From Tubiluchus corallicola (Eukaryota > Priapulida > Priapulimorpha > Priapulimorphida > Tubiluchidae): 64,000 nucleotides of DNA. The stretch's first letter is position 1. The number at the start of each line of letters is the position of its first letter. Both the position numbers and the translations under genes were made by a program. The DNA lies in NCBI GenBank assembly GCA_030141605.1, contig JAQGDQ010002367.1:744501-808500 (forward strand), in the 5' to 3' direction. The notes below the pieces were generated by a model. The model had not been told where the DNA came from, searched no databases, and was given only the letters and a program-made list of their open reading frames with translations. Of the stretch, positions 20,201 to 52,213 are shown piece by piece.

Positions 20201-21237
20201 ATCAATCACGAACCCAGAGAGGGTAATTGGTAAATAACTGGTGAACCTAGGCAAAGAACAGTGCTCAGCAACTAAATGTTAGTTGGAGGAAACATGTATC
20301 AATACAGAAGTTACAGAACCATAGGAATCAGGAAAAAAGTTAAAGCTTAAAAATTTATAGTGATTGAAATACGAAACAACACAAAAAACTGTACAATAAA
20401 TTATTTCTCCTGGTGACATTTACACAAATTAATATGGGAAAATTTTTCAACAGTTTGATTCTCAGAAAATAACTCCAGTTAGTTGAAAATCTCCAGTTTA
20501 TGCAGACTTAACTGTTTAGAATTTCACTGGAGTGACTGTTTGTATGTTTGTATTTTGATTTGTGTCATACGATTTTCATTACGTACTATTACAGAGTTAC
20601 CATCTGTTTTTACATTTAAGTTTTAATTTTGAGTAAATCCTTTTCTTTCAAACGGCTGATTGTCATGTTATACAGTATTATATTCTTTCATACTCTAATC
20701 ACAAAATCTCTGAGTGTACAATTTCTTTTAATCTCTATCATTGACAGCATTTCACTAGTATTTTAAATTTGTACCTTAATTTTAAATTCACTGCCAACTT
20801 TATTATATTGTAACGTGTGATGAAACGTAGTGTATTGCTTGTGAGAAATAAATTATTACTATTAAGATACTGTTCATAATACTGATATTCAACTGCACAT
20901 CATAAATTCTGTAATTATTAAACTGTCTGCATATTTACACCATTTCATCTTTACTTACTCAACTAATTAGTGCAAAGCCATCCCAAATCCATAGTTACAG
21001 TACTACAGCACTACAGCCAGGGGCGGATTATGACCTTTTGGGGTCCCTAGACTTAGGAAATTATAAGGCCCCTCAGACGGAGCTACCCGCTAACTACAGC
21101 AATAGAGACAGTATTCAACTGACAATAATTAATTTTAAAACATGTAGCACCATGGTTAAAACGCAGGCACCTGCCGATGTACTTTTCGCTATACCTAGTC
21201 TGAGACATGCATGCCCACTGAGATCAGGAAAACATGT
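17292..21237. other. No supported gene; ETFRF1 downstream region
   Basis: I see no coding exon. The stretch holds a second LINE 3' tail (about 18440-18490), two diverged copies of a roughly 60-bp segment (18192-18250 and 18350-18410), and a hAT-like terminus CAGGGGCGGATTATGACC at 21018 with no identified partner. The minus-strand 3' UTR of ETFRF1 must enter from the right. A minus-strand AATAAA exists near 20801-20806 but is not proven to be used. Confidence 0.5.
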
Positions 21238-22821
21238 TCATGCATCACTGTAATACCGTTTCTTCATAGCGCGATATTTACGCAACTTGTACAGAGCTTC
21301 TAGTTCTTTCACTACATATTCACCACGCATAATCAACAGCTCGATTTGCTCAGGATCTTTAACATCTTTGTTTTTTGTAAAAGCTGCTTTTAGTCGTTCG
21401 TGAAAATATTCGGCACCTTTCGGATAATCTCGTCCGAGATAATGTAACTGAAATTATACAAAAATTTTAATAGAAAAGAACAGGTTATTTTATGGTTCTG
21501 CCTGATCTTTTCCATTTTACTATAAGGTATCAGGAAAATATGAATGTAAAATCAATTTTAAGAGAAAGAAATACAGCAAGAAAAAATCAGACCATTTGAA
21601 CAAACTGGTCACTCCATGAAACATGCCTTGCCTTTTTAATCCATTTATACAGTGGCTTAAAATAATTTCCTAAAATAGCCATCTATTACAACTGTTTAAT
21701 GAGCAATAAAATTTTTTACACTTCCAGCCAATGATGATAAGTGTGAAAAGGTCAAAGTGAACTAGACAATACATTTGTGTACACATGACAACGCCTCGCA
21801 GCAGATGCTATTGTGATAGTAACAGCTTTAACAGCTAGCTAGAAGATGATCTAGTTCATTTTTCTTGTTCCCCAAACAAGATCCTGCTAATAAATCATTC
21901 TACACAGAGACTGATGCATAACTGATGCAAGAGACGGCTTTGCTTTACACACATGTCACGTGACGATTGTAGCTAAGACGCGTTGCTGTGGTACACTTAA
22001 TCTTTAACCTACAGCAACGGTGTGCGCTCGATGAAATTGTGAAAAGCCTTATTCTATTTGCAATTTGTAATTCTATTTCTAATAGCAACAGCAGATGCAA
22101 TGACGTTAAGTAAATGCATATATTGACGATACATGCATTTGTCGCATTTCCAGATATTTTGTGCCAGAAACCAGTTAGCAGTGCAAAAGCATTAATCTAT
22201 TGGCCACCAATGATATTTCTTCAAAATCAAACATTAGCAAGCTGACATTGTATCTGGCCGAAGTGTTGAGGCATGTTTGAATGTGAATGCACACTGCCTC
22301 AACAATCCAGATGAAATCAGTATGGTGAATGAAATCTAAGATTAAAGCTGACGGTTGGCCACCTATTCATAGACTAGCTTTCACGCAGCTTTAATTGCTA
22401 ATATTCACTAAGCAGTGAGCAAACAGTCACTTTGGTCACTCCGGATCTTTCCTTGCCATATAAATCAAGATTTATTTAAAAAACCTCATCGTCTTCTTCC
22501 AAAGAAAGGAATTTTTTTAATATTTTAGGCAGGCTTTTCTGGCAGCTTTAACATCATAATGCTAATTTCTAACAATTATTCAACAACAATCAATTTTAAT
22601 GAGCTGTAGACATTAAACAAACAGAACACAACATAAATGCTTCTATATACGTTAACACAGTACCTAAATATGACATATTGTAAAGTTCATGTTACCACTT
22701 ACATCACACTAGTAGTCATAGCAGAAAATGTTATTTAAAATATGCATGGTAAAATTTTACATACATTTTTATAAAGCTGGATAACTCGACTACGAAGACT
22801 AGCATGAATTTGTGACGACAT
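21238..22821 (-). CDS. ETFRF1: ETFRF1 (LYRM5), LYR-motif electron transfer flavoprotein regulator
   Basis: Two coding exons, 22821-22765 (19 codons from ATG) and 21447-21238 (69 codons plus stop), joined in phase 0 by a GT..AG intron. The 88-residue product is close to the length of the animal family. The N-terminal LYR-type helix reads RVIQLYKN, followed by [11 protein letters not shown]. The C-terminus has the family-typical [19 protein letters not shown] block. Known role: a mitochondrial matrix protein that binds electron transfer flavoprotein and regulates its FAD content, and so fatty-acid oxidation electron flow. It is transcribed away from DNAI7, head to head, as in vertebrates. No frameshift or missing block is seen. 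Identity is by motif recognition. Confidence 0.93.
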
Positions 22822-23020
22822 TTTTGTGCTGTTTTCACCTTAATGTGCCGTGTTGGATATGCATAAACCTAGTTTTAACCTGCAAAAACACAATAACACG
22901 AAAAAATCTTCAAAAGTTTGATTTAAGAATCGCCACGATAATTAACTATAAAAAGAAAGAAACCAATGCTCCTTGATCATAACTAATTCCCAGCAATTAG
23001 CCTAATCCAGTTTAACCCAA

Positions 23021-23275
23021 TTAGCACATGCAATGGTAGCTGGAACAAACTGAACTAATCACCACAAAAACATTATGAGAGTATTCAAAGTCCTTCAGAT
23101 TGTTAAAAAGATTTCTGATGTACACATGTTTTCTGATGTATACACCATCCTTTATATACAGCTTGCTAAAATATCTAGCGTAATCTAGAATTACGACATT
23201 TTTCGTGTCAATGAAATGACCAGTATCCCAAAAGTGTTGGGCCAACTCTTTAGCTGCCTCACTACACTAGCATTA
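23021..23275 (-). pseudogene. Retroelement C-terminal fragment (GIY-YIG-like context)
   Basis: The minus-strand frame contains AAKELAQHFWDTGHFIDTKN followed by a YIR motif. This resembles the segment 'LAEH...TGH.I....' found near the C-terminus of GIY-YIG-carrying retroelement proteins such as Penelope-like elements. Only this short piece is present, so it is a relic. Family assignment is tentative. Confidence 0.4.
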
Positions 23276-23706
23276 GGATGAAACAATAAGTAGGATTTCA
23301 CCAATTTTTATCATTTATAATAGTTATTCAGAAATTATATGCTTAATAAATGTTATCTCTTCACTTAAGCTATCCTCAGAACTGCAATAACAAAGAATTA
23401 CCGAATCTCAAGATTAAAAGAAGAAAAAACACAGACATGCAGGACAGATATCAATTATGTATGCATACAATCTCACACATACAACTTAATACACATTCAT
23501 TTGTTCACACACTCACATACAATGTAATCAATTATCAGTTCTCTCATGCACACATATTGTATAAATACTCATTCAAATGAACAACACACACACACAAAAC
23601 TTCATGCACAAACACTTACTCATACAGCCACCCACAATGAATGTAATCAGTGATCCTGTCATGCACAACTCATACTCTTTATTGTAATTATGTGAGTGTG
23701 TACTAA

Positions 23707-23707
<1 letters not shown>

Positions 23708-23744
<37 letters not shown>
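23708..23744. repeat. (AT)n microsatellite
   Basis: A perfect AT run. Confidence 0.9.
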
Positions 23745-23746
<2 letters not shown>

Positions 23747-24099
23747 TCAATGTTTTTCAAAGATATGAATCGAATTAGCAAGTTTTAAGCTGTTGGATAG
23801 TAAATTTCAAGTTTTTGGTCCAATATTAGAAATGAATTGTTTTACAACAACGGTTCTTAGCTGAATACTCTATTAATTAAATCGAGTATTATATACTTTA
23901 TTATTTATTTAAACCGGATTGTCAAAAAAGTTGGAAGTGAGTTTTAAACATAAAAATTGAAACCTTACTAATATAATATATATATTATACTATAAAAATA
24001 ATATACTAAATCATCAAATTTTAAAATTTTACAGTTTAAAAAGTGGGAGTTATTAACTTCTGCATGTTTGGGCAAATTATATAAAATCCCGATTAGATT

Positions 24100-26390
24100 C
24101 ATTATACTAGTGGGGTAAAGTTAAACATCCTTACCCGGTGGGGTAAGTTAGACCAAAAAATAACTGAATAATTTAAATAAGGAAATATATAAGGAAATGA
24201 ATAAGGAAAAATAAGGATATATAGTATAACCAACAAAGCAGCACATAGATTTTGACTAACACGGGAAATTGTTCCAGTGTTTTTTGCAATTTTTGTGCTA
24301 ATCATATTCATATTCCAGCTCAAATTATCATTAATTATCGCCCCAAGAAACTTAATTTGGTTAAACATGCTATTTGGCAAATTTGGAAAAAACAGTAGCA
24401 TTCTGAGAATTGAACCTTGTGGAACTCCATGGGCAATTTCTATGGGACTAGAAATAGTATTGTTACTGGTGACAGATTGTAAACGAGTAGATAAGTAACT
24501 CTGAAACCAGCCACAGACAATTCCTCCTCAAAAATAGAGTTTACTCATCAAGATATTAAGTCACAGGCTTTTGACAAGCCATGGAACACACCAGCAGTGA
24601 CAGAATTTTCCTCAATAGTATTCACAAGCTCTTTACATAGCGATACAAGTGCAAGTTCGCTAGAGCATACTTTACGAAATCCAAATTGTTTGGTGTTAAT
24701 TATACTATGCTTTTTCAAATAATTGTTTAGTTGATTGTACACACATCTCTCCAGAAGTTTAGAAAAATTGGCAAGAGTCAAAATGGTCACTAATTATACA
24801 TACAAGTTGAATCACCAGATTTAAATAAAGGCGTGACTAAAGGCTATTTCATTTTATCTGGAACTATGCCTGTACCAAGAGATAGACTGATTATGTAACT
24901 TTGCGGTGTTGTGATATATTGGATAACATCAACAATTATTTTTGGAGAAAATCTATATATATTAGAACTTTTATTTGGATTTAAATTTTTACTTGAGCTA
25001 ACTATATCATCATGAGTAACAGGTTTAAAATAAAAGGAATCTGTGTAATTCCCATAAAGAAATTGATTACATTTAACATCAGTACATTCAATTTGGTTAG
25101 CAAGTTTTGGCCCAATATTAATAAAATAATGATTAAAATTTTCAGAAATCATTTGATTATTCATTACAAATTTATTTTGGATTTTAAGCCTGATGAGTGT
25201 AGAATATTAGATTTATTCATCAATTCCTTTACAGTATTCCAATTTTTTTAGTATTTTTGGCATATAATTCAAATTTCTTTCTATAGTAATTATTTTTTGT
25301 ATGTTTTAATAAATTATTTAATTTGTTATGACATTTTTTATAGTTAGTAGTTTCTAATGTAACACGAGTTTTCATAACAAATTTATATAAACGGTATTTT
25401 GTATGACTGACTTTAATAAACCAAAAGGAATCCAAGGTTTATGGGGATATTTGAATCATTGACAATTTTTTGTTCTTTAATATGTCGTGAGTAAATACTG
25501 CTAAATTTCAGGCGAAACATGTACATACATACATGTATATTAGCATCATTATTACTTAACACATCATACCAACTAACATTACTTAAATCATGTATTAGAG
25601 CATTTTAATGTCATTATGATACACAATTTTATTGCCAGAAACATGAGTGAGTAATGGAAAACACAAATTAGTTAATAAACACACCGGTAGGTGATCAGAT
25701 ATACCTGTTAGAAGAAAACCAGATTAAAAGTCAATCTCAATTGCATTGGTAAATACGTTATCAATAAGTGTGGCAGTGTAATCTGTAACTCTTAGTAGGG
25801 CGAATTATATTTGGGAACACATATTGACATAGCATAGTATTCAAATAATATTTGATATGATCGTGTTCAGAACGGGATAGTAAATTTATACTGAAATCTC
25901 CTAAAAGAAAAATAATTTTACCACTATTATTAACATCAGTCAAAATATTGGACAATTTATCTGTAAATCTTAGAGAAGGCTGTTACCTAGTGGTCGATAT
26001 ATACATCCAAGTACCTTACTTTTATCCTTGTTACAATTAATTTCAATGAATAAAGCATCAATATCATCACCAATAACACAAAGATCATTACATTGGGTGC
26101 ACGAAATATAATCATAAATAAACAGTGCCACTCCACCCCCTTTTTTTATTTTTTCTATTCAGACACAAAAACCTATAGTTGGACAGTATAAACATATGAC
26201 CTTTTTCATTTTTTAACAAAGGTTCGGTAAGTGCGATGACAGGAAACTTAAACTTAATAATTTCCGGGTAAGCAAAAAAATGGTCGAAGTTTGCTTTGAG
26301 ACTACGAACATAAAGATGTATTAAAGTAAAAGGATTATTGGGTAATCCTTTTAGTTCTTTCATCACCCTTTTAACACTAATCAATAATTA
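24100..26390 (-). mobile_element. Decayed jockey/CR1-like LINE with endonuclease and RT
   Basis: Minus-strand frames line up in ORF2 order. Endonuclease start (26384-26112, IHLYVRSLKANFDHF) is followed by endonuclease middle (25955-25761, FLLGDFSINLL and PNIIRPTKS). Next are the linker (25435-25229) and the pre-RT region (25164-24844, FNHYFINIGPKLA). RT fingers follow (24790-24548, FSKLLERCVYNQL and QFGFRK), then GVPQGSIL near 24415 and the thumb (24401-24102, IKFLGAIINDNLSW). Frameshifts and stops separate the blocks. The palm piece with the YxDD catalytic motif is missing between GVPQGSIL and IKFLGA, indicating an internal deletion. It lies in the ETFRF1-DNAI7 gap. Confidence 0.75.
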
Positions 26391-26465
26391 CTTTTGCGCT
26401 TTGTAATATTATTGTACGTTGTCTGTCAGGATCAATATAACCATCGTAGGGCGCAGAGTACGCCA

Positions 26466-27265
26466 CTAGCCGAAGTAGGACACGTCCGCTAAAACGCATA
26501 CATGTGCTAAATTTGCAGAAAAGCAGTGTTGTACATGGACAGCCCAAGTAGGACACTGGCGATTTCTGTCGAGAATCGATAATTACAACATAATGAAACA
26601 TAAAACTAAAGTTATTTTAGAAAAAAAGTAACTTTATAATAATGATGGATAATCCTTGACAATTTACAAATGCATTTTTCACAATATATCATTATTATTA
26701 GCTCCATTAATATAATCATAACACTAAACTAAATATCTAATGCTTTAAAGCAAGAAACTATGTAGGGCACATAGCTTGCTAGCCCATTTACCTAGTAGAA
26801 ACAATTATTTGCCCAAGACTAAGAGGCAGTGAAACGTATCACCTATCTGTGAAGCGAGACAAAATAAAAAAATGATAGACTTAAACAAATGTTGGTATTA
26901 CCTAAAAGGCGAGCTTATTTTACTTCAAAAAGATTAATAGCAAAGCCAAATATAATATTGGCCGTTCTACTAGCTCAGAATAAGATCCTTTAAGACTTTA
27001 TTACCATTACTGTCAAAGGATAGAGGTTAAGCATAAATAGCTTATAAACCTCTCCACTCTTCCTTGTTTACTTTATCAATATTAAAAATACAATATTATC
27101 AGATGTATAAAAAATTATTCAACGTGTATTGACGTTTTCAATTATTATTATTAAATAAACAATGACAACTGACGCTGCCAGTACGATTAACGATTCATTT
27201 CAGGACCTGTCTCTAGTGTCCTACTTGGGCAGCCCATGTGCGACGCACCCTACTTGTGCTAGCCC
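26466..27265. mobile_element. Non-coding element with about 55-100-bp inverted repeat arms
   Basis: The left arm contains CTAGCCGAAGTAGGACACG (about 26468) and CATGGACAGCCCAAGTAGGA (about 26534). The right arm, read as reverse complement from 27265, contains CTAGCACAAGTAGGGTGCG and then CATGGGCTGCCCAAGTAGGA. Both arms have the same two blocks in the same order, with a shorter spacer on the right. The 650 bp between them is AT-rich with no transposase. It is probably a MITE or foldback element; the superfamily is not identified. Confidence 0.5.
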
Positions 27266-28835
27266 ATCCCAACAACCATTATTAGTTATTGTCGAAATTA
27301 AAGTCATTTTCACTGTCATCATCAAATACCTGTAAGTTGAAAGCATTATTATCCAGTAAGTTACCAAGGTTGGAAAATCTAGCAAAAAATTTAAATTGAT
27401 CCTCGTCAAGAATATGATTAAAATAAATGGATTAGCCTCCATTACATCCCGGAGCTTAAATTACTTACGAGTTTTCAGAGATTATTAAAAGTAAGTTACA
27501 GTGACACACCACTAAACTTTTATTTTACTACGTATTGCAGCAAGAATTAGTTAAGTTTTGATGATCATCAATTATTATGAATAAAATGTTTAAATGTTTA
27601 TCATACAAAAACCTCCAGCACGTGCAAGCTGCGTGCAAACAAGACTCTTGTTGCACCCTCTGACGGACGCAAACATAAAGTTTGCTTAAACACTGGATTT
27701 TATTTAAACTTTATTTGTTAATGTCAATAAGCTTTCAATCATAACTTGATTGCCTGCTATAATTTTTAAATTTTTGCAAAGTTTTTATGTGTCAGTTTGT
27801 TTTATTTGTACAGCTTACAAAATGCTTTCTTGCAATCACGTGACGGCAAATTAGCGTCATTGGCAACAGGTTACAGGTACTTTAATTTCTCCAGCACTGT
27901 GCGGTGAAAACTGTTTCTATATAGTATATTTAGTTTAAGCGGATTTACAAATCGTTACAATCGTATAAAATTATGTACGACTCGCCAGTTGTATTTTTCA
28001 GACTACACTTTGGAAAGATTCTTTTTGTATCAATGCTGTTAACAGCAGCACATTTTATAACATTAGTCCTATATAAATAAATTGCGCCGTATCAGTGTAT
28101 GAGTGTAGCATGACTTGATATATTCAGCTTCGCCATCTTTATGAACTTGATGAACATTCTGTAGCGAAATAGTTACGTAATTGGTGCACTATGGGGGTAA
28201 GAAGGTTGCGGTATGAGTTGTGTTACTGCACTTTAAATTAGTCTTGTAGTTGTAATGTAAAAAAGAACTAGCAACATATCTAATGTAAAGTCGAAGTGGT
28301 TTAGGTTTGAAATTGTTTAATTTCATTTTCTTTAATCCAGTAATTCTTACAACTGTTTTTGTACATCCTTCCATGCTATTTATGTTGTAAAGGCAATGAT
28401 CTAAGCTATGCCTTGTCCTGTAAGTGCCTTGTTCTCTAGTTTTCAATAGTTGAAATAATTAATAAATAATCAGCACAGAGAAAAAAGCCATGGCTATAGA
28501 AAACTGAATGAGAAGCTGTCAAATGCAGCAATAATTAAACATTCATACAACAAAAATGTTGGTGGCAATTAAAAATAATGTGTTAACTAGAATTGCATTT
28601 TAGTGCTTCATCTATTATGCCTATATACTAATCTGTACCTAAAATATTTTAAAGGAAAGCTAAACAGATTAAACACTGACCAGCTTAACTGTGCAGCTGT
28701 TGCAGTGACATTTGCCGTCACTAATGTAAACCAAAAGTTGTGAAGAAAATAACTGGCACTGTAATTAACATGCCATGCAATATAAAAAATCAATTTCACA
28801 ATTAATTAGAAGCAAATTAAGCAACACTCAGCAGT
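27266..28835. other. Presumed DNAI7 upstream region
   Basis: AT-rich with no recognised coding exon. Regulatory DNA and untranslated first exons of DNAI7 are expected here, but I see no motif strong enough to mark. Confidence 0.4.
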
Positions 28836-31800
28836 ATGGCACAAATCAAGGTTGTTAGGTAATAGGTAATTTCATCTACCTAATTTTATCTGTATTAGGG
28901 ATATATCTTACCTACTTTACCTGTCTGCATGATCAGCTGTATTAATTTATCTCTATGAATATTATACGCATATCGTGTTTCATCACATCTTTGAGTAATT
29001 TGATTTAAAAGTTTTGTTACATTGTGTCTTTTATTACTCTGTTTAGCCAAAGAAAAAGAAAAAGCTCTCTAAAGCTGCTAGACTCAAAAAGAAAAAATTG
29101 GAAGCTGCAAGAAGAGCACAGGAAGAAGGTATTATTTGCAATTAATGGTTTGATTTTCATTTGTTTCTAATTTGCTAAGTTGTTTGTTTAAAAATTAGCT
29201 TCTAATTTATTTGTTTTTCTTTCTTTCTTTTGTTCGTTCTTTCTTTCTTCCTTTCCTTCCTTAAATTCTTTGTTTTTCATCTTTCTTTTTTCCTTCTTTC
29301 TTCGCTTTATTCAGTCTTGCCCTGAGTTATTCACTCATGCATTCATTGACTAGTTCTTCATTTTTTTCATATATTCATTTTTTTTAGTTGCACACACACA
29401 CACATACACATACACACTCAACATGAATATTTTTCAACATTTTATGACCATCATTTGTAAAAATGGCAAAATTATTATACTGTGTCATTAACTGTAAGGA
29501 TTTTCAAATTTTATAATCTTGTCGTGTGCCTACTTTGTCTATGATATACTATATGCAATGTCACTTATAATTCTTGTATAGAAGAAGCCAGGCTTCGAGC
29601 AGAACAGGAGGAGTTGGAACGACAAGAGCGAGAACGAGTCGAAGCAGAAGAAAGACGGAAACAAGAAGCTATTGTAAGTAATTGAATTACTAAGCAAATG
29701 TGATATGCAGAATACTAGTAACAAATTTTATATTTGTACTTCATTTTACATACTTTACAGGTTTACATATGCATGTTATCACTCATAAGTGTAAAGTATC
29801 ACTTGAGCTATATACATATTTAAAATGTGAATACAAATTGCAGTTTGAAACCAATAAAATTAAAAAAAGTCTTTGTTGTTTTCCAGTTTCCTTTTATACG
29901 TAATTTCCTTTTTAAAAACTACGTCAATTGTTAATCTGTAATTTAATCTAATTACTAATCCATTATAAATTATTGTTTGGAATTTGTGCGAAGGCAAAGA
30001 TAAGATGTGTGATATTGCAGTATGAAAAGAGAAAAATTACGCTTAGGTTGAAAGCATTGTTATACTTTTTTTACACATTTCAGGAGCATGAGATCTGGTT
30101 GGTTCAGAATGCTGAATTGGAAACATTTCTTGATAACTATAATTCAAAACTAAATGATTTCAACGACAAACGCCGGAAAGATGAAGCGGTAGTATAATTT
30201 ATTAAAACATGATGAGTGCCTGAGGTATTGCTGTGTTATTGCAATATAACTGTGAAATCAAGTTTCAATTTCAATAAAAAGCAAATATTAATTATTGTAA
30301 AGAAATATAAAGTAAACTAAACCGAAGCAAAGCAGTCAATTTGGGTCAGTTAAATCTTATGAGATCTTTTATCTGTGTTTACATATTTCAGTGGAAGCGA
30401 TATATGGATTGTTGCGGATTACCGGATCCAACCATACCTGGAGAAATTAACACCTACATAAATCAGTGGAGAGAGGATTCCACTCATGACCACATTGATT
30501 CAGTTCTACACGAAAGCGTAAAGGTCCTTAAGGTAGTAATATGTCCTGCTGTAATCCATTCATGTGTTGTATAATATAATGTTATTTACTGCTTAAGATA
30601 TTTACTACTTAAGATATCATTCAGTTGACGCACTGTGCAGTTTGGAAGCAACTGTAAGCTGTACTTGAATTGCATTACAGAACTGTTAAGGACGATGAAC
30701 AAAATAAATTTAGAAACAAGAAACACTTTTCTTTCTTTTATTCACCGACCTATTTACTAACCTGACCCTGCTTAAATTTACACCTGAGTGTAAGAGCACT
30801 ATGGCTGTGACTATGCACTTCAACTGTGCCAACACTCCCCTTTGTCGCATTGTTTACATCCTACTTGTGACATAGGCATTTTTGCTTAACTATTAGCTTC
30901 CACCCAATCTGGGCGTCCTGTTGTAGTCCGCTGTAACGTTACCAACTTAAGCTGATGAGTCTGTTGCTATGAAACTTCTTTACTGTTCTCAATAAAATAG
31001 TTATTTTGGCTAAATATGTGTAGTTGTAGTGTTTCCTGTTAGTGACTTTACATGAGCACACAGGATGACCACCTGGTTGTTTGGTTGTTGTAGCTAGGAT
31101 AATTTTGGACCTTGATATGCATATTAGCTGATTGCTTTCAGTTAGTGTCAGGATATTACAAGCTTGAGCAACTTTTTGGGAAGTATTTTTTTTGTCTAAG
31201 AGCTCTTGTTAGGAAACAGTGTCTCATCTCTTGACACATAATTAGTGGGCAATGGGGCGATGAAATGTTGGTAGCTCAGCATAGCTTATTCTGATTATCT
31301 TCTCTAACAAGTGATTACCCGCATTTAGTGATGTTTGTCGGTATGTGTGTGTCTATCTGTCTGTCTACGGCCATATCACGTTGAAAACACCGGTTCTTGT
31401 CTGATCACCAAAGTTAAGCAACGTAGAGCCTCGTTAGTACTTGGATGGGTGATCACCTAGGAATACCAGGTGCTGTAGGCTTGCGGGATTGCTCAGCCAC
31501 AGTTGACGCAGCAGCTCCATCAATTTGATCAATAACTGACTCTCTTAGCGCACACTCCATTGTCTTCCGAGACAGAAGGGTGACAACAATATCTGTCTCT
31601 AAGGTCTTCGGACAGGTACAATAAAAAGAAGTTTCATTCACCAAACTTGGCACAGTGATGGGTCTGCAATGGGCAAAATAAGCTAGTTGCTTTTTCTGGT
31701 TCAAAGACACAAGATAAAAAAATCAAAATAAACTTGTTTTTACCCATGCACTGAATTTCATGACAAAGCATAGGCCTGTTTTCATTGTAGTTCTTATTAT

Positions 31801-34450: not shown

Positions 34451-34527
<77 letters not shown>

Positions 34528-43500: not shown

Positions 43501-46409
43501 GAGGAGTCCCTGATCCTTAGCAATGAGCTTGGACAATGATGGAACAAACTTGAGTGAAGTTCTAGCATATGGCGTTGATGAAGATGTTGAGGAAGATGAC
43601 ATGTATGATTTGGCAATAATAAACCTCGGCAAAGGAATAGTAGAACCTGGAGGTCTCCCAGATTATGCTTTTTTGCCAACGGCCATTGCCACACAGTCAG
43701 TAAATGATGTCACTTTACCAGACGATCTATCAGAGCAACAACGCACAGAACTTCGTTTTTAACAAGTATCCGGAAATGTTTACGGATTTTCCGCCTACGT
43801 CCTCAGCAGAAGAAGCTACAACAAATATGTGATTTTCCACGGCCACAAACAAAAACTCAAGTACGTAGATTCCTAGGAATGGTGGGCTTCTACAGACGTT
43901 TTATCGAGAACTTCAGCACTATCGCTGCACCTCTGTATTCTTTAACAGAAAAATATTCCCCCACTCAAGTACCTTGGACAGAAGCTTGTGAGAAGAGCTT
44001 TCTTACCCTTCAGAATGCTTTAACTTCTGACAGTGTTCTACATTCCTCTGATTATTCGAAACCATTTATCCTAACTACAGATGCCAGCTTTGTGGGCATT
44101 GGTGGTGTACTCACACAAGATCGTATGAATGGCTTGGGAGAAGTGCCTATCACATATGTCAGTCGTAGGCTTACACCCACCGAAGTCAGATATTCTGTAG
44201 TTGAATGTGAACTTCTGAGTGTTGTATTTTGCATGCAGAAGTTAAATTACTATTTAGAAGGCCGCCAGTTTACATTGCGCACTGATCAAAGAAGTTTGCT
44301 TGCGCTCAGAAAAATGCTTAAGAATAACAATGTGTTACTGGGCACTCATTCTTTCAGAATATTGCTTTACAATTGAGCATATTGCTGGCGCTCAAAACCT
44401 TGTTGCTGATGCCTTAAGCCGGAAATAAATATAAAGCGTCAGAGTATGAAATGCTCAACAAGTTGTAGTACTTTTTCAGTGCTTAAACAAGTTTTTTTTT
44501 GGTGTTATATATCATATATTTGTTTGATGATACATTTGTGGTGTATGATGTAATGATCAATTTGCTTCTTTTTATCTTTGTTTTGTCTGAGTTGAAAAAT
44601 ATGTAATAACTCAGTGAGCTACAAAGTCGTTACTTCTATTCATGTTTGTCATTGCATATGTATGACGTTATCGTATCTTGGCAGTGAAAAATGTTACGTT
44701 TCGTAATCATGATCTTGAAATATTTAATATTCTTTAGGGGAAGGCTCTGTGATGGTCCCCCATCCAGCAGATTACTGCAACTAATTATTTTTCACTTTAA
44801 ATATTTTTCTTAACGGTATCACGAATTGTTTACCTAATGATTGATAATATTGATGTATTGATTTTTATGTTCCAATCTTGTGCTGCCATCTTTAGTCAAG
44901 AGTAGCATTATTTTCGATGAAGTTATCATTAAATGAAGCCTTTTTCTGTTAAGCTACCTTAAATATGTAATTGGGCAGAAGAAGATGAAATTCGTTTCGT
45001 TTCAACATGACTTGTATTTTTCAAGCGAAAATACGTTTAGCAACAATTTTTTCCATGATAATATTATGCCCGTGTTTGAACAAATGTGAAAGCTTCGTCG
45101 CTGTACTACTGAGGTCACTTCACCCAGAACTCGTTTCTGATTGGTCGGCTAGCTTTCGAGGGCTGGATATTAGACATATTGGCCTACGTGGCGGGGAGAG
45201 TAGAATGGCCGTGTTGAAAAATGGTCTGATATAACTATATCATGGTTTCTTTTACGATGATTGAACAAGAAAATGGATGGTTTGTTCATTACTATGTTCT
45301 TTTTATTCATTGGTGAACGCTGTTCCTCTTTTGTTGGTGAAACCTCGTCAGTTACGCAACTGCTGAGAGACATTTGTTAAATTAGGCATTCGTTACATAG
45401 CCTAATCACCTCCTCGTTGGATAAAGATATTGTCACCTTTGACTTCACGTTCGATGATCTAAATCGCTTCCGTTCTGTGTGGGAACTCGGAGGAGATGAT
45501 CTTCTCATTATCCGATCTCCAGAGACTCTACTACGTGTCCGGCCTGTTGGAGGGAAAGCTGTGTAAACCGAATTCTGCTGCATTACCACAACGTGCGTGA
45601 GGAAGGACCGGTCCTACCCAAGTACTGGAGGAGACCTCGCCTTGTATGCAGGACGTCACGTGAGCGCAAGAAGTATTACAATATTCATATGTTACTATGT
45701 TATTTGTCAGCTAAATTAGACTGATTCATTGCAGTAACGATGTGGATTTAATTGTTTTACTCAGGTAACGATAATTACTTAATGCCTAATATGGGCACAT
45801 TATGTTCAAATGTTACAGTAGCATGTCATATTGCTCTAGCCAAGCGAAAAGTGTGACACATATAAAAGACAAGCTTCTCTTTTTACAAGTACACAACTAA
45901 ATTAGAAAACTGTTGTGGTCACCTGATGTGATCTAGTGAATTTATTGTTGAGCTCAGTTACCAGTGATACAGTTAATGATGTAATGTGAATCTTGTGCAT
46001 GTCATTAGATGGTTCTCACTTTTTGCAAAGTTGAGCAGGTACAAAGACTGAGTTTTGTTGAACTTGGCAAACAACAGAAAGGTGGACCCACAGGAGCACT
46101 AGGAGGTGACCGTCCCAGTTCAGCAGCTGGAGAAGAAACAAAGAAGTCGCACAATGTTTCTTTGCAAACTGGTCTTCAACCATTAAATGTTACTTTCAGG
46201 TGTGTGTTATATTTCATGCATTCCAACTTATGCTGATTTAAAGGTTAATAAACTTGTGGCTTTGTTAGTTAGTTGCCAGTTTGTGTCATTATATGTAACA
46301 ATGTATATTGATCCTTAGGATTATCCGACACATGAATATGATATTCATTTCAACCGTGACTTTGTTTATTGCAAACTTTACTAGACGATAATATGGCATA
46401 TGAGAGAGA

Positions 46410-46477
<68 letters not shown>

Positions 46478-49400
46478 TTGTATGTAGTTTTATTATAGTA
46501 TATAGATGATGACTGCTACAATTGCAATAATTGCTGCTACTACTTCTACTACTGCTGCTGCTGCTGCTACTACTACTACTACTATTTCTACTACTATTAC
46601 TACTATTACTTATAAGTAAAATTAACACACATTTCTATTCAGCGAATTTTGCGTGAATAATGTGAGTGACTAATATGCATCATTCCTTACAGAGTCCCAG
46701 ATAACGCCTTAATTTGGGATCAGCCATTAGTAGCTCATTGGAGCCATGAATTTAAACATTGGAGACATGATAACATAAATGATGTAACCTATAATGAAGG
46801 TAAGAAAACAAGTGTGTTTTTGTTTAGATTATCTTTTGTTGTACTTGATTATAAGGGAGGTACCTATGTCTGGAGAACTAGACTTAATTTGTGATATTTT
46901 GTGGTATTTTCCTATTGAGTGGAAATAGATGCAGCCTTTTTTAATTTTCAAGAACAGCCCTGTGATGGCATTGCCCAGCACCCAACTCTCCCTGAACTTT
47001 CTGAAATAATAATGCATCATTGAGACTATAAAGGCATTATGTTTTTCATCTTAAAGATGACATATCTCAAGAGAACTCTCTCATATAACCAATCCATTTC
47101 ATTATGTAGAAAAACAACCCAGTTGTTTACACTAGTACTAAGCCATAACAGACTTGCCAGTTGATGTCAAGACAAACTTCTTTTACGGTTGTGGATTTTA
47201 ACGATCTGTAATAGTTCATCAAAGTTGGTGACCACGAAGTGCACATGAACAGCGTTGCTTAATCATTCTTTATGATCAAGAGATTATAATCTCCATCTTT
47301 TTTGCAATAGAGAGTGGTACCGTCGCTTTCAAGACAACCGTTTTTGGAACATTTGCATTGCTGCAGAACAAATACATAACCATGCCATTTTGTTCTTGGT
47401 GGTTAAAGCACAGTGGTGCTGGTGTCGCCATCTATAGCATAAAAGCACCTTATGTGGAAGTAGTATTTGAAATAAAGGTATGCTCTACATGTGCACAGGG
47501 TTTCTGTTAGTGAATTTTCTTACACACGCATCATTATTCTCAAAACAAAATTTATAATAGTATGCAAGTGTAATGTCAGATTGATGTTTAATGTTTTTAT
47601 CCTTTTGCACTTAACTGAATAAACAAAATATCAGAGGAAATGTTATTGTCTGCATTTTTTAATCATCTTTGAATGCATTAGGCACTGTTTACATTGCAAC
47701 TAGTTCATGATAAAGATACGTTTGTCCACAAATGCCCCAATATGAACAATTATTGTATAGAACCATCATTGTAAAAATTATACGTGTCATTGTGCTAAAT
47801 TATGCAAAAATTGCTGTATCACCCTCTCTATAATTTGCATCTTGGTGATTTTTAGTTTTATTTTTCTTGTACTACATGTACTTTTACTATAGTATATCTA
47901 CTTTTACTATTCTATATGTACTATACAAAAAAATAAAAATGATGTAATTTTTAGGTACCAGTGAGCTTTCTTATGCTGTTATTGGAATTCACCCATGCTT
48001 TATATATAAATATAATTTCTTTTGTACACATGAAAAGGCTCAATGGCACCCAAATGTGCCTAAGTTTCAATAATTGTAATATATATTGTGAGTCTCATGA
48101 ACACTACTAGTACTACTGATTATGTTATGCTTGGTACTGGTGGCAAAGGAAACCATTTAAGTCAGATGATTTGCAAACTTGCGTGTGAAGTTGCAGAATA
48201 AGTTGAGAACTGAAATTTGATGTGCTCACACATGTGAAAAACTTAAAATGCATGTGACACATGCCTAATGTGTGAGAGTTGGCAGGTCTGATGATGAATG
48301 ACTAACATGGTTAGAGTATACCATTCTATTATAGCAAAACCTGGTGCGTCTCACTGAGCCAACTAGTGAAACCTGCCCGCAGTTAAGAAGTTTTGTAAAT
48401 GAGTGGATGATGCCATTTCAGTTAATCATGGTTTGTTCCTTTTGTTATATGTATATGCTTACTTTTTATATTAATGGTTTGATTAGCACATGGCTTCTCC
48501 TTAATTCCCTAGTTCAAGTCTAGATCATTCTGTTTAGATCAGTTTTTGTATATTTTTTATATCTTGCTTGCAATTATTGTGTTCGTGATACATATACCAA
48601 TTGAACAAAAAGTGGCAATAAAAATTTAATTAATACATTAATTAACTAAAACAATTAACTAATACACAAAAATTAACTAAAACAATCTTTTGACCACTAT
48701 TAATGAATAATATCCTAAATTAGGGATCAAGTTTTGAGATTATACTCTAAAAGGGAAGAGGTAGCTACTGGTAAGCAATTTTTCACCTTTGATTGGTAAT
48801 GTCCCAGTCCCCTTAGCTACTGTGACTGCAGTCTGCAATCTAAAAGCCCTGCCTAAAGTCGTTTAAGGGAGTCGAGTGTTTTATATTGTTTGTCATATTG
48901 ATTGATGAGAGCTAGAATGTAGCATTGTTTCTTTAGCTACATTTGGCAAAATTAAGACAATTTATTTGTGGAGCACAACAATTAACAGTTATTGTCATCA
49001 GCAGCTCAGTAATACAGGTTTACAATAAAAGTGACTGCAATAAAAATATAAGCACACTATAATTCAAGCATTCAAGCACACAGAACAGTCACAGAAGTAC
49101 TTAAAGGCACATTATAATGTTACTGATAAACAATGTAACAGAAAATTGTAAGATTTTGTAGTAAGCTACGCATCTCCAGTTAGATTTTTACTAAGCTACT
49201 TACTATTATTGTACTTGTCTGACTTGCCAGTCAAAAGTCTATCTATTGGCATTAGAGTAGTTCAGCAAAATTTAGTTTCAGTCTAAAGTTTGAAATGTGA
49301 TAATGCATCTGTAAGATGATTGTGATGATTGCTGTGACCGATTATATTTGAAGAATTAATTACTTTAAATTATTGTGCCTATTTTTAACTTTACAGAAAA

Positions 49401-52213
49401 TGCGTTGTGCAGGAATTAATCTATTTCCGGAAACAGACGCGACGAAATTTGTTACCGTTAATCGAAAGATCCCTTCCGTCGAAGCAGTCCTATATCAAAA
49501 CATGGCTATCATTGCATGTTCAATCTCGTTTCGTTCTTCTTACTGGAACAGTCAAGTGGATCAAAAGCAACTGGTGCTACAGGCCCGCGAACAGCTGAAT
49601 GACGATGATAATGCCAATGAGGTACATTATAAAGTTTACCGAAATTTCACACACTGACTGTGATGAGAACTTTATTAAAAGCTTTAATTTACATTTTTGT
49701 CTCATCTTGAACATTGTTCAAAAAAGTTTACATATCAAGATTTTTGGTTTCTGGTTAACACTTCTGGCAATTATCAATATTTTTTGTTTGTGCATCTTAG
49801 AGTAGGTATCATCATTGTATTTCTTTACTGCCTTCCTTTGGTAGTTAGCTAATGCAGCTGCTATGGCACTGTTTTCAATGACAAAGTGCTATTTACAATC
49901 ACTGTTATGCTGTAGGGTTGCCGCTTCATCATTTGAGTTCATCCAAACTCAGGAGTTCAGCAGCAGTAGAGGGTCTGTCTGGGGGAGTGCTGTATTTCCT
50001 GTATTTCAGACGAATTAGGAGGCCTTTTTCAGAAACAAAAATTGAGAAATTTAATTTACATAGTAATACAAATTTCTTGACTTTAGACTCTAACAAAAAC
50101 CTTAAAAGTGTAAATTAAACTTACAAAAGTACAAGGAACACAGAGCATATCTGGAGTTCCTTCTCAGTCTTAATAGATTTCTTGCATTTTATGAGATTTT
50201 TTTGTATATAATTCGTAGCGATCGAATTATTAGGAACTTTATATTACACGATCAAAGCTAAATCTCCTCTCCGTGTCTTTTCTCTTATTCATCATCATCA
50301 TGTACTCATTACGTCCATTACAGACTTTGAGCAGAGAGAATTGTAAAAGAAATCTGCCTTTAAGACATAAAAACAGCAGTAATCCAGGAAAATCTAGGTA
50401 TTGCCATTGTCTTCAATCAGCACCACTTCCAATTTCAGTTATTGGTACATGTAAATTATGCGTTCACAATTTGACTCAAGCAAAGTGAACCTACTTGTAT
50501 TACACTTGCTGCTGCGGCAAAAATTGGCAAAAAATATAAATAGGTGAAAAGATGAAGCTTTCATCAGATTAAACTTAATTTAGTATCTTAACAGAGATTC
50601 TGCTGGCTTTAGCAATTAACTTTATGTAGTTTCAATAGCGTTAAAGCTGTATTTAGGTATTTTTTACTTAAATTGCAATGCATTGGTCGAAATCCAGAGG
50701 TTTCAGAACTTTTCAAGAGTCTAATCGAATTACGGATCTGTGTCTGAATTTCAAGATACTCATGGTGAAATCCAGTTTGGTGGCAACCCTAGCACCTAGT
50801 GCATTTAATGATCGAATAACATACAACAACTGTTTTATAGATTTATAAACAAGTAAATTTTTTTAGTAATACCAAAGTTGGATGACAATTCTGGCTTATT
50901 TAATTTTATTGTGTGAAACAGCTAATATGTGAAATTTTGAGATTTTGTAAAGTTCAGATCACTTAGTCCAAACTCACATAGGTAATTATAATTCTTAATA
51001 CTGACAGTTGAACTGCCATCAAACAATTTTAAAATTAATTTAAGACAAGTCCATCTAATTATGTTTATTTTGTTTCTTAACAGACTGATTGGTGCTTGAT
51101 ATCATTTTCATGCAAACGAGCTGTTAAACTTCAAATAAAGGAAGATGCCACTGAATTCAGTGAGGAACAGAATACTGAACATCCAGTAAGTTTCAAACTG
51201 TAGAAGCCAAAACTGCTAGCCTTGATCTCTGCTTGAATGCAGCAGTATAAGTTCTTTTACTTTCTGTCTAAGGAGCACTTTTTGGCAACTTTGATAATTT
51301 TAAAAAAAGCAAGGAACCAAAGCATGAATTTAAAGAGAATACAATTTGACGTGATTTTATTTTATTTGTTCTCGACTGGTCATATCAGGTTATTTGCTAA
51401 ACACTTTTTTATGATGTGAGTAAATTTCATTTCAGTTTTAAATTCATTTATTACTTCTAAATTAGAGCATTTTGGTAACTTTTACTTATATGCCATGTAA
51501 TGAAAAATATAATTTTCTAACAAGGTCATGCTGTATTACAAGATGTGAAGGATTCTTTATGTCTTACAACGGCAATACCGCATTGTCCAAAACTTCAGTT
51601 ATACGAACACTGAACAAAATTCAGCAACTATCTAAAAGCTGCAGATTATTGTGATGAAGCTTTTAAATTCATTTGACTGTAATTCACTAGGCTAAATTCT
51701 CTTATGACTCATCATTCGTGTATTTCATTAACAGTGTGTGTAATTAAGCTCCACCCATATAAAATGTGTTTAGCAGTTCGTGAAACTATGGTTACTCTCC
51801 AAAAAAAAGCACACCATGTCTCATGCCTAACTGAAGCTTTCGTGATTCAAAGCTCTGGAATGTAAAATAACCATAATCATATGGTTTTAAGTTTTTATGA
51901 ACAAATGTCTTGGTTGTTAAAACTGTTAATGAAACTATCCCTGCTGCTTTATTTAGTAACTCAAATCTGGAAGAACATTTTTCTGTGACTGTTGTTATAC
52001 GTTTTCAATATTATAGAATCATAAATAATTGCTGTATTTTTTACTCTGCAGTACTACAGTGATCTCTACCATCTGATAATGGCAATAAGCTCAGAGGAAG
52101 TGAAAAACAAAATAAACAACAACGAGGACTACACCTGCATTGATACTATACACCAGATGCTCATGGCTACAAAACCACTGTCATTTACTGTAGCAGCCAG
52201 TAGAGTTGCTTAG
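28836..52213 (+). CDS. DNAI7: DNAI7 (CASC1), axonemal dynein-associated protein
   Basis: Seventeen phase-consistent exons: 29047-29128, 29582-29673, 30084-30188, 30392-30532, 31828-31971, 32359-32462, 34818-34984, 35223-35386, 36097-36382, 36895-37032, 46031-46199, 46693-46799, 47311-47477, 48335-48430, 49397-49621, 51084-51185, 52052-52213. They give about 816 residues. Exon 28836-28850 (MAQIK, phase 0) is only a candidate start. The N-terminus is a Lys/Glu-rich coiled coil. The CASC1 N-terminal domain follows ([25 protein letters not shown]). A Ser-rich linker precedes the C-terminal domain ([36 protein letters not shown]). Known role: ciliary axoneme/dynein component, implying motile cilia. 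Weak points are the acceptor at 46031 and the donor after 48430. Intron 37033-46030 holds the LTR retrotransposon. A polyadenylation-like ATTAAA lies near 52242. Confidence 0.9.
31363..31482 (+). rRNA. 5S rRNA-like sequence (probable pseudogene) in DNAI7 intron
   Basis: 120 bases, the normal 5S length. The terminal helix pairs (GTCTACGGC with GCTGTAGGC). The internal control region is recognisable, with an A box around AAGTTAAGCAACG and a C box around TAGTACTTGGATGGGTGA. Differences from typical eukaryotic 5S are mostly C-to-T or G-to-A at CpG sites (CTTGTC, CACCAAAG, GATCACCTAGG). No T run follows the 3' end for about 200 bases. I therefore favour a decaying retro- or dispersed copy over an active gene. 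It is in the same orientation as DNAI7. Confidence 0.8.
33010..34011 (+). mobile_element. Pogo/Tigger-like DNA transposon, defective
   Basis: A 1,002-bp element in a DNAI7 intron flanked by TA on both sides (33008-33009 and 34012-34013). The left end CAGTAGGCGCCGCTTAATAA matches the inverted right end CAGTAGGTGCCGCTAAATAG at most positions. Subterminal 'TTAATTGACTCAAAA' motifs occur in both halves. TA duplication plus CAGTAG-type ends are typical of pogo/Tigger elements in the Tc1/mariner superfamily. A transposase remnant near the right end supports this. The element is far shorter than a complete Tigger. Confidence 0.8.
33510..33721 (+). pseudogene. Tigger-type transposase C-terminal remnant
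   Basis: Inside the element at 33010-34011, an acidic stretch is followed by [15 protein letters not shown] and then [10 protein letters not shown] and a stop at about 33719-33721. Tigger/pogo transposases commonly end in a 'KQ.TL..FF' tail after an acidic region. In-frame stops upstream (near 33580 and 33606) show it is dead. The DDE catalytic domain is not recognisable. Confidence 0.5.
34256..34325. repeat. TTTAAG-type tandem run, probable LINE 3' relic
   Basis: Four copies of AAGTTT followed by ATTGTCATATAAAGTACATA. Short tandem hexamers next to TTTATTGTCA are often LINE 3' ends, but no coding part is present. Confidence 0.35.
34453..34523. repeat. (AT)n microsatellite, about 70 bp
   Basis: An AT run, with a second shorter run at about 34540-34560. 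Tyr-Ile open frames across it are artefacts. Confidence 0.95.
35445..35525 (-). repeat. Inverted partial copy of 35780-35875
   Basis: The plus-strand pieces TTGTTCTTGAT and CAGTAGGCATGGT (35481-35506) are the reverse complement of pieces at 35789-35807 and 35829-35840, in matching order with a roughly 28-bp gap. The flanking bases also align (TCCTCAGATGTTGGT). The two arms are about 300 bp apart and could fold back in RNA. Confidence 0.55.
35704..35877 (+). other. Candidate alternative terminal exon of DNAI7
   Basis: After a good acceptor (TTGAATTCAG) there is a 57-codon open frame in phase with the preceding DNAI7 exon (35223-35386), ending in TAA. The translation includes [20 protein letters not shown]. 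An AATAAA follows at about 35952. Because exon 36097 also joins exon 35386 in phase 0, this segment would be skipped in the full-length message and would make a short isoform if used. An inverted partial duplicate lies at 35445-35525, so a mobile origin is also possible. Confidence 0.35.
37548..37610 (+). repeat. Dispersed repeat fragment
   Basis: Shares AGAAAACACAGCG and a 'TTTATGTTT..ATTAT.TTTTGTT' segment with 38046-38200 and 46803-46950. Confidence 0.4.
38046..38200 (+). repeat. Dispersed repeat copy
   Basis: Aligns along about 150 bp with 46803-46950: the 'TTTTGTT.TACTTGAT.ATA' block, the 'TCT.GAGAACT..ACTTAATTTGT' block and the 'GATACAGCC' end. It is non-coding and both copies lie in DNAI7 introns. 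Confidence 0.55.
38565..38569. repeat. Target-site duplication GTAGC (left)
   Basis: GTAGC directly precedes the 5' LTR and directly follows the 3' LTR (45818-45822). A 5-bp duplication is standard for Ty3-type integrases. Confidence 0.9.
38570..39639 (+). mobile_element. 5' LTR of Ty3-type retrotransposon
   Basis: 1,070 bp, starting TGTGATGG and ending TGTTACA (TG...CA termini). By eye it differs from the 3' LTR at only about five sites: three within the first 60 bases, one near 38977 and one near 39434. Short open frames inside it occur identically in both LTRs and are not genes. Confidence 0.95.
39640..39657 (+). promoter_or_regulatory. Primer-binding site
   Basis: TTGGTGTCAGAAGTTTTA directly follows the 5' LTR. 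Its complement ends in CCA as expected for a tRNA 3' end. A tRNA-Leu primer is my guess from similar TGGTGTCAGAAG sites in other elements. Confidence 0.7.
40270..43539 (+). CDS. Gag-protease-integrase polyprotein of the retrotransposon
   Basis: A 1,089-residue intact frame from ATG at 40270. Order: a charged coiled-coil region (about 130-175), gag capsid-like region (about 195-375), CCHC zinc knuckle ([14 protein letters not shown] from 407), aspartic protease with DTGA (D486), and a linker. The integrase HHCC zinc domain (about 731-771) precedes a catalytic core with Asp801, Asp860 and Glu896 (35 residues between the last two, DD35E). A GPY/F module (WRGPYQI) sits near the C-terminus. No RT lies between protease and integrase, unlike ordinary Ty3 elements. 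All catalytic residues named are present, so the protein may be functional if expressed. It encodes the particle, processing and integration steps of transposition. Confidence 0.93.
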   Translation: MSDVRYKLSELMTLNKEQLQNIVAELHLLVDPTSRRAVLITAILKAAGCPEEGKRDEGAELDTFDAGMNQPLLCAEASDPTEAAKTPDVSVKPKHMIVTEQSPTPTPRRRRTTERMTDVTLESLSTVNEAAAQTFLQIRRLEAETEAKKLQLEHERIMAEMELRKLELTAASPVSQSPMMSQASPFYSRQADSTVDKLKLMKIRPFDETKDDIQKFLDWFQACAAANKIDRSDFAACIGPSLSGRAADAFQQIPESEMRNYTYVRKALLGAYILSNDVYLERFRGTIKLKNESYRQLFRRLDNSWRDYLEAIQAETFETVNEAVVIEQALSLMPHDLATWLKTDSIRTIEKMAQRADQFVAARQITSLPGKNVYSFKKTGKPNVATSQGEGASNTNMSQNLATKMHCYACGKPGHRRSECRSRLGTEHVMRPANAAVFGKPGKQLFSTPEIKMPNNDDDWHHVPGRKQPVGFTAKINGYVVKGQRDTGAGVSMLHAKFVRANQYLNELRHKFVCACGDMRQSKLAKVEIIGPGFSGILTVSVSDNLPVDFLLGNNYESALKPFPENAEKASKFNKEVGKYSVKPKKNAASKSPPKQKPQSATDVESIYAITRSQADKLEAQVKQDTLLQQQVFDSSASNDGLAVKDSPAEDQKQLLDVTIEQISEEQKVDVTIRNIIDNACTEEEAYKLGKGYFLRGGALFYLSKGKRHQASRELLVLPKFRRKEVLQLAHGSKLAGHLGINKTTRRILQEYIWPRLKRSVREYCRSCLTCQKTARSRSADRAPLKPLPIVDTAFRTIGMDLIGPLDRTPSGNRWALVIVDHATRYPDAYPLVDIQTVTVLNALLKFCCRYGIPRQILTDCGTQFTSNLTKELEDQLGVKGIFTSPYSPSTNGLVEKYNDTLKKSILRLTQDFSSLPWDLAIDYVLFSYREVPQDSTGYSPNELVFGYPVRGPLTMLKERWGCSKPPSLEDVDEYVARVINALETSTEDAHKSLQEAKLSQKRWYDRVSKERSFEVGDKVMVQRMRKGKKMQPGWRGPYQITDKVSDWTYKVCFGKKGRRKDTRIVHINKLKQYVYREESLILSNELGQ
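43523..43762 (+). CDS. Post-integrase linker ORF of the retrotransposon
   Basis: Begins with an ATG 17 bases before the stop of the long frame, in the +1 frame, and runs 79 residues. It is acidic (VDEDVEEDD) and ends [11 protein letters not shown], which resembles the region just before RT in such elements. It stops at 43760-43762. In another frame the text continues with a '[13 protein letters not shown]' stretch typical of pre-RT sequence. The frame was probably open further in an intact copy. Confidence 0.5.
   Translation: MSLDNDGTNLSEVLAYGVDEDVEEDDMYDLAIINLGKGIVEPGGLPDYAFLPTAIATQSVNDVTLPDDLSEQQRTELRF
43763..43830 (+). pseudogene. Junction where the reverse transcriptase core is missing
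   Basis: Pre-RT sequence (MFTDFPPTS in one frame) is followed within about 30 bases by post-RT sequence ([17 protein letters not shown] in another). The RT fingers and palm, including the YxDD motif, need about 500 bp and are found nowhere between the LTRs. I read this as an internal deletion with its breakpoint at about 43785-43805. Confidence 0.75.
43828..44429 (+). pseudogene. RT thumb/connection and RNase H remnant
   Basis: Starts with the connection motif [17 protein letters not shown] and [10 protein letters not shown], then [13 protein letters not shown] (RNase H first Asp), YSVVECELL (Glu) and RTDQRSL. One frameshift near 44322-44340 breaks the frame. The remainder ([18 protein letters not shown], third acidic position, then stop at 44429) is in another frame. 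RNase H downstream of integrase is the key domain-order observation. Confidence 0.85.
44733..44747 (+). promoter_or_regulatory. Polypurine tract
   Basis: TTTAGGGGAAGGCTC directly precedes the 3' LTR. The purine core AGGGGAAGG is the expected primer for plus-strand synthesis. Confidence 0.65.
44748..45817 (+). mobile_element. 3' LTR of Ty3-type retrotransposon
   Basis: 1,070 bp, same ends as the 5' LTR and about five differences from it. Followed by the GTAGC target duplication. Confidence 0.95.
45818..45822. repeat. Target-site duplication GTAGC (right)
   Basis: Matches 38565-38569. Confidence 0.9.
46401..46475. repeat. (AG)n microsatellite
   Basis: An AG run with one GG interruption near its start, in a DNAI7 intron. 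Confidence 0.95.
46511..46617. repeat. CTR/CTA trinucleotide-rich repeat
   Basis: Imperfect CTG, CTA and ATT triplets. The Ser-rich minus-strand frame across it is an artefact. Confidence 0.8.
46803..46950 (+). repeat. Dispersed repeat copy
   Basis: Aligns with 38046-38200; see that entry. Confidence 0.55.
50288..50436. repeat. Dispersed repeat copy B
   Basis: Similar, with gaps, to 3748-3893. Located in a DNAI7 intron. Confidence 0.4.

Follow-up and report, generated by a model that had tools for sequence, protein, structure and literature searches.

The stretch analyzed here (the window) comprises 64,000 nucleotides of a contig of the priapulid Tubiluchus corallicola (JAQGDQ010002367.1, positions 744,501 to 808,500), and positions below are counted from its first letter. 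It contains ETFRF1 (LYRM5) on the minus strand and DNAI7 (CASC1) on the plus strand, with their start codons back to back at 22821 and 28191 and the genes diverging; from the stop codon of ETFRF1 to that of DNAI7 the pair covers 21238–52213. The initial annotation had already described the two genes as facing each other on these strands, and domain matches and gene models bear this out. The gap is shorter than the about 6 kb given there, the distance between start codons being 5,369 bp once a 6-base first exon of DNAI7 is predicted. The head-to-head pair is real and probably ancient, and conserved pairs of this type are already known as a class. The features assigned to ETFRF1 are the following:

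22822..22945, minus strand: candidate 5' untranslated region (UTR) part of the ETFRF1 start exon, bounded by a candidate splice acceptor
22765..22821, minus strand: ETFRF1 coding exon 1 with the start codon, 19 amino acids (aa), donor GTATGT
21238..21447, minus strand: ETFRF1 coding exon 2 including the stop codon, Complex1_LYR match, acceptor TTTCAG

The encoded product is an 88-aa LYR protein whose two coding exons (21238–22821) join in phase 0. The Complex1_LYR profile matched 21238–21453 alone with an E value of 1.9e-9 and the spliced model with 9e-14, and identity with human ETFRF1, in an unverified version of the human sequence, was 70%. Six LYR profile matches above cut-off were found in the genome, i.e., three at the ETFRF1 locus on three contigs and the loci L001, L002 and L006. 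When this human sequence was used as tblastn query against L001, L002, L003 and L006, only L003, which is the gene of the window, was found (103 bits), while the window protein as query gave a weak match to L002 (37 bits) and one to L006 at E 0.12. The gene carries a LYR domain together with a C-terminus of the ETFRF1 type, and among LYR proteins it comes nearest to ETFRF1. Since the human query misses the other three LYR loci, we take the gene as the ETFRF1 ortholog, and the possibility of a paralog was rejected on the same ground. No relatives of ETFRF1 were found in the viral and prokaryote sequence collections.

DNAI7 extends over 28191–52213 on the plus strand, with 19 predicted coding exons and an 847-aa model. 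The start exon and 17 more were set by open frames and splice sites, and the exon at 46031–46199 was added later. Exons listed without comment rest on open frame, splice sites and alignment to the (human) DNAI7 chain 8j07_k3:

28191..28196, plus strand: DNAI7 coding exon 1, predicted (Met-Gly), ATGGGG followed by a GTAAGA donor
29047..29128, plus strand: DNAI7 exon 2
29582..29673, plus strand: DNAI7 exon 3
30084..30188, plus strand: DNAI7 exon 4
30392..30532, plus strand: DNAI7 exon 5
31828..31971, plus strand: DNAI7 exon 6
32359..32462, plus strand: DNAI7 exon 7
34818..34984, plus strand: DNAI7 exon 8
35223..35386, plus strand: DNAI7 exon 9, linker outside the chain alignment, set by open frame and splice sites only
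35704..35777, plus strand: DNAI7 exon 10, donor uncertain (splice-site choice; a longer form meets TAA at 35875)
36084..36382, plus strand: DNAI7 exon 11, mostly linker, acceptor uncertain (splice-site choice)
36895..37032, plus strand: DNAI7 exon 12
46031..46199, plus strand: DNAI7 exon 13, its end aligned to the chain
46693..46799, plus strand: DNAI7 exon 14
47311..47477, plus strand: DNAI7 exon 15
48335..48430, plus strand: DNAI7 exon 16
49397..49621, plus strand: DNAI7 exon 17
51084..51185, plus strand: DNAI7 exon 18
52052..52213, plus strand: DNAI7 exon 19 with the stop codon

The profiles Casc1_N (4.7e-51) and Casc1_C (8.6e-14) fell on the two halves of the model. The match to 8j07_k3 (E 2.9e-98, 333 bits) covered residues 3–275 and 352–715 of the 716 in the chain, with 108 identities in 277 columns of the first stretch and 89 in 288 of the counted part of the second. 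Both domains are thus present and the chain is matched at both ends. All nine Casc1_N matches in the assembly were at the DNAI7 locus on the three redundant contigs. That the two genes are orthologs rather than paralogs, as proposed at the outset, is supported. The donor of the predicted first exon (6.4) was the best of 12 candidate start exons (the next two scored 5.9), and this exon was picked by eye before the CpG boundary at 28209, described below, was found. The uncertain junction between exons 10 and 11 falls in a linker that does not align to the chain. Within 35704–35877 an in-frame TAA is reached unless the weak donor at 35777 is used; it is possible that this marks an alternative ending or a variable linker.

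The locus lies inside a 1.05-Mb contig (C1787) of the 343.5-Mb assembly, and both genes are also found on two further contigs, C2138 and C2264. The parts compared with the window (50 kb of C2138 and 3.1 kb of C2264) were 100% identical to it. We have counted ETFRF1-DNAI7 as one locus because these contigs are redundant copies; a second haplotype was considered and discarded, as the identical parts add nothing. The region being present three times with no difference in the compared parts, copy counts taken from this assembly need dividing. A search of the assembly for mitochondrial COX1 gave no match.

In mouse and human the two genes are also divergent (human 12p12.1), with less than 100 bp between them in human, where KRAS is the next neighbor. 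The claim that mammals have the same neighbors has printed support as to adjacency: at the mouse Pas1 locus Casc1 is adjacent to Lyrm5, in the order Bcat1-Lrmp-Casc1-Lyrm5-Kras-Ifltd1 (passages of PMC3990522). Adjacent orthologs, head to head in both, are found in two distant species. The priapulid locus differs from the mammalian one in having 5.37 kb between the start codons, different flanking genes and no listed Ras match on its 1.05-Mb contig. No Ras family member was among the listed matches on the three contigs, for which 150 of 270 candidates were scored. To the right of DNAI7 we found an SLC13-like gene and then a laminin chain, and to the left of ETFRF1 a rhodopsin-type receptor, a TGF-beta ligand and DRC5. 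Ancient linkage of ETFRF1 and DNAI7 is likely. Because both orthology and orientation find support and the Casc1-Lyrm5 order of mouse has been published, the likeliest explanation by far is that the two genes descend, already linked, from an ancestor shared by this animal and mammals.

Our literature search found no account of a divergent arrangement of these two genes, or of their pairing being conserved in non-vertebrates; supplements, most subscription papers and the list of Irimia et al. (2012), which may include the pair, were outside its scope. In the accessible parts of two papers, LYRM5 and CASC1 are named together only as amplified neighbors or list entries (PMC2717977, PMC4342812), and the accessible text of a study of CASC1 duplication in songbirds does not mention LYRM5 (PMC4377847).

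The gap between the start codons contains the following features:

22979..23262, no strand assigned: low-copy repeat, Penelope-like by eye, with 3 of 50 non-self genome matches
23380..23700, no strand assigned: dispersed repeat, with 47 of 50 non-self genome matches
23756..26445, minus strand: broken relic of a long interspersed nuclear element (LINE); 23756–25440 aligned to a relative, the endonuclease-like rest (to about 26.4 kb) recognized by eye
26446..27265, no strand assigned: repeat with inverted arms resembling a miniature inverted-repeat transposable element (MITE), with partial copies nearby
27266..28190, no strand assigned: CpG-retaining stretch, candidate shared promoter domain (CpG counts, two-state model)

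The LINE relic and the MITE-like repeat make up at least 3.5 kb of the gap, with further repeats beside ETFRF1. A genome search with 22822–23700 gave 53 matches, three of them the locus itself. The LINE relic matched a LINE copy some 57 kb away on the left side with a best tblastn E value of 1.5e-32, and the frame of this copy matched RVT_1 at 2.7e-22; a profile scan of eight pieces of the gap, one of them the Penelope-like one, gave a single match, to RVT_1 at 0.057. Partial copies of the MITE-like repeat, 78–92% identical, are found at 96.4, 98.9–99.1 and 102.7–103.6 kb in window coordinates. Only the arms of this element and an AT run were prominent in an inverted-repeat search across the gap. 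The initial annotation saw nothing but relics of mobile DNA between the genes. Mobile DNA does make up most of the gap, but two stretches lack detected repeat copies: 22822–22978, which matched only its own locus in the genome search, and 27266–28190, for which no other copy was found within the 164 kb examined.

The ratio of observed to expected CpG (o/e) was 0.38–0.52 in three segments of DNAI7 outside a long terminal repeat (LTR) retrotransposon in intron 12, and 0.94 inside that element; the flanks of the window had 0.80 (left) and 0.61 (right). A two-state model was fitted to CpG versus TpG plus CpA after masking of the LTR element and of simple repeats. An undepleted segment, 26129–28209, appeared between depleted domains at 21503–26126 and 28214–49335, and the gap holds no second segment of this kind; the depleted domain on the ETFRF1 side extends 3.3 kb upstream of the ETFRF1 start codon. 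The gain of two states over one was 57.6 log units, as against 1.9 at most in 12 permutations. The right edge had its median at 28219 (95% 27692–28414), i.e., at the DNAI7 start codon chosen previously, which is good support for the predicted exon 1. The left edge, with no additional masking, was at 26128 (25585–26730). Of 400 samples, 394 had position 27.5 kb in the undepleted state without this masking, and 389 with exons masked. After the model we split the gap by repeat content: 27266–28190 (925 bp) has 23 CpG against 24.3 expected (o/e 0.95), while 22822–23755 has 8 against 22.0 (o/e 0.36; p 0.004 for the comparison with 27266–28190) and DNAI7 intron 1 has 5 against 20.3 (o/e 0.25; p 0.002). 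The MITE-like element has 20 against 23.9. Promoters appear as unmethylated domains next to methylated gene bodies in Ciona (passages of PMC3827831), and upstream promoters are hypomethylated in two annelids (passages of PMC11292947).

Our preferred reading, to which we would give a probability of about one half, is that this is an orthologous divergent pair whose linkage has been kept by one promoter surviving at 27.27–28.19 kb, with the repeats lying inside a 5'UTR intron of ETFRF1. Both genes would be fired from this single divergent promoter and would have stayed together for that reason. The promoter would survive as the CpG-retaining DNA just upstream of DNAI7, and the LINE, the MITE-like element and smaller repeats would have been inserted in the ETFRF1 intron, making it longer and leaving the promoter unsplit. 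If ETFRF1 has such an intron, the transcription starts could be within about 0.9 kb of each other through the CpG-retaining stretch, for start codons more than 5 kb apart. A candidate acceptor for it lies at 22945 on the minus strand, 124 bp upstream of the ETFRF1 start codon; its score of 9.9 is second among the 288 AG sites in 22822–29000, and 1.3% of 300 simulated stretches of 200 bases contained a site scoring as high (P 0.013), for a region chosen after the sequence had been viewed. From the single CpG-retaining stretch beside DNAI7, shared regulation of the pair is suggested, and the CpG pattern as a sign of one promoter domain common to both genes is suggestive only. That an ancient bidirectional promoter should have escaped disruption and persist behind a 5.4-kb separation, because mobile DNA built up in the 5'UTR intron of just one of the two genes, is a proposition we put forward tentatively.

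Several observations count against a surviving shared promoter. With exons and the LINE masked, 27.5 kb was undepleted in only 338 of 400 samples and the left edge became loose, and a coarser initial comparison (22822–24100 versus 26621–28190) gave p 0.10. Coding exons are undepleted too (21074–21499; 49339–49618), so the undepleted state does not always mean a promoter; in two annelids, promoters are only 7.7% and 14.1% of the unmethylated regions (passages of PMC11292947). The stretch on the ETFRF1 side contains dispersed repeats, and therefore its CpG loss could stem from methylated mobile DNA. As far as CpG content shows, the long CpG-depleted gene domains and the undepleted stretch that stops where DNAI7 begins resemble the mosaic gene-body methylation of invertebrates with unmethylated promoters. 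Of three gene starts examined, one is an exception: upstream of the laminin start, placed by eye at about 122.5 kb, the 1.5 kb retrieved contains no undepleted segment. The start of the SLC13-like gene (about 74773, by eye) is near a CpG boundary at 75254/75260 in the 164-kb stretch, which means little because boundaries are frequent there. The splice matrix is a rough one that scored the true ETFRF1 acceptor (21447) at only 0.5, and the best donor in the undepleted segment was equaled in 49% of simulated sequences. Compared with the density in the window, promoter motifs showed no clear excess: RFX, NRF1, ETS, YY1 and SP1 were below that density and TGACG equaled it, while CACGTG (4 against 1.8 expected, the palindrome being counted twice), CCAAT (16 against 12.7) and a loose FOXJ1-like TRTTTR (56 against 40.2) were above expectation in raw counts.

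It is also possible, if on the doubtful side, that the linkage was inherited and mobile DNA has since split two promoters that are now independent, the CpG-retaining stretch serving DNAI7 only and ETFRF1 starting within the short stretch of unique sequence immediately 5' of its own start codon. The 4 CpG in 22822–23020, where 5.2 are expected, and the matching of 22822–22978 to its own locus only are what such a start would lead one to see, although these counts are tiny and the same CpGs are compatible with an exon. With 5.37 kb between them, the start codons are far apart for a common core promoter, which in conserved human pairs most likely measures less than 100 bp (PMC3024869). However, depletion past 22.95 kb would require methylated repeats, and yet the left flank, which contains a LINE-like piece (16.6 kb, E 4e-5), is undepleted. 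CpG retention leans toward a shared promoter over two separate ones without deciding between them.

Much conserved linkage is kept by distal elements rather than by a shared promoter, and this pair may never have been held together by one; its adjacency would then be a passive remnant or the effect of another constraint, e.g., a distal element in the intron of one gene. We regard this as unlikely, the head-to-head orientation having been retained. An independent origin of the adjacency here and in mammals, or a false join in the assembly, is highly improbable. A scan over many windows, such as a genome-wide reading, would meet some chance pairs, and the assembly is redundant; but we estimate the chance of one named pair in one orientation at about 1 in 10,000 or less, and the pair is found inside a 1.05-Mb contig and on two more, though these are not independent since their compared parts are identical.

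The known role of ETFRF1 is to bind the electron transfer flavoprotein and strip it of FAD, and we know of no pathway common to this mitochondrial protein and the ciliary DNAI7. Like other conserved head-to-head and bidirectional-promoter pairs, these genes are adjacent on opposite strands with facing starts and, going by known function, have one mitochondrial partner; they differ in having start codons more than 1 kb apart. The dissimilar functions had been presented as an oddity, which in themselves they are not: in human divergent pairs, genes for RNA processing and DNA repair are reported to be paired mostly with genes of other function, with a preference for ones connected with mitochondrion, ribosome and nucleolus (passages of PMC3815023). 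Should the linkage prove as ancient as it seems, this would be a clean case for testing why genes with no functional relation remain neighbors. CpG retention is a possible means of distinguishing a shared promoter that has been kept from one that has been split. Were the shared promoter true and general, start-codon distance would seriously underestimate how many old divergent pairs in repeat-rich invertebrate genomes still have a common promoter, and such pairs would be recognizable from sequence alone by their CpG retention. As a particular instance with a promoter hypothesis, the locus is modestly interesting.

Among the neighbors, the rhodopsin-type G protein-coupled receptor is a single-exon gene (12310–13404; 7tm_1, 3.3e-10) in the undepleted left flank. 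The DRC5/TCTE1-like gene (locus L029, 573–2311), about 60 kb left of ETFRF1, is a second motile-cilium gene near the pair; its part 573–1328 matches the DRC5 chain 8j07_5 at 1.6e-48 and the rest was recognized by eye. The SLC13-like transporter (54800–74773, minus strand, running past the window end) is tail to tail with DNAI7, with CitMHS matches below cut-off (6.5e-6 and 2.3e-5) and other exons identified by eye. The DNA between the 3' ends of these two genes is CpG-depleted (o/e 0.50); in Ciona some convergent gene pairs are methylated in between (passages of PMC3827831).

The element in intron 12 of DNAI7 is recognized by its LTRs, flanking duplication and Pfam matches:

38570..45817, plus strand (sense to the gene): LTR retrotransposon

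Its LTRs of 1,071 bp are 99.5% identical, from which we consider it young, and it is flanked by a 5-bp duplication, GTAGC. Integrase_H2C2 (8.4e-20), SCAN (3e-8) and RT_RNaseH_2 (1.2e-32) were above cut-off and the zinc knuckle and protease below it; no RVT_1 was found in the frames scanned, which cover only part of the element. The domain order is SCAN-like gag, zinc knuckle, protease, integrase and then RNase H, with integrase ahead of RNase H as in Gmr1-like elements. Intron 5 of DNAI7 contains a full-length 5S rRNA match (31363–31481, 98 bits), either a 5S gene copy or a short interspersed nuclear element (SINE) headed by 5S, and a tRNA match on the minus strand at 56009–56081 (33.5 bits) is perhaps a tRNA-derived SINE.
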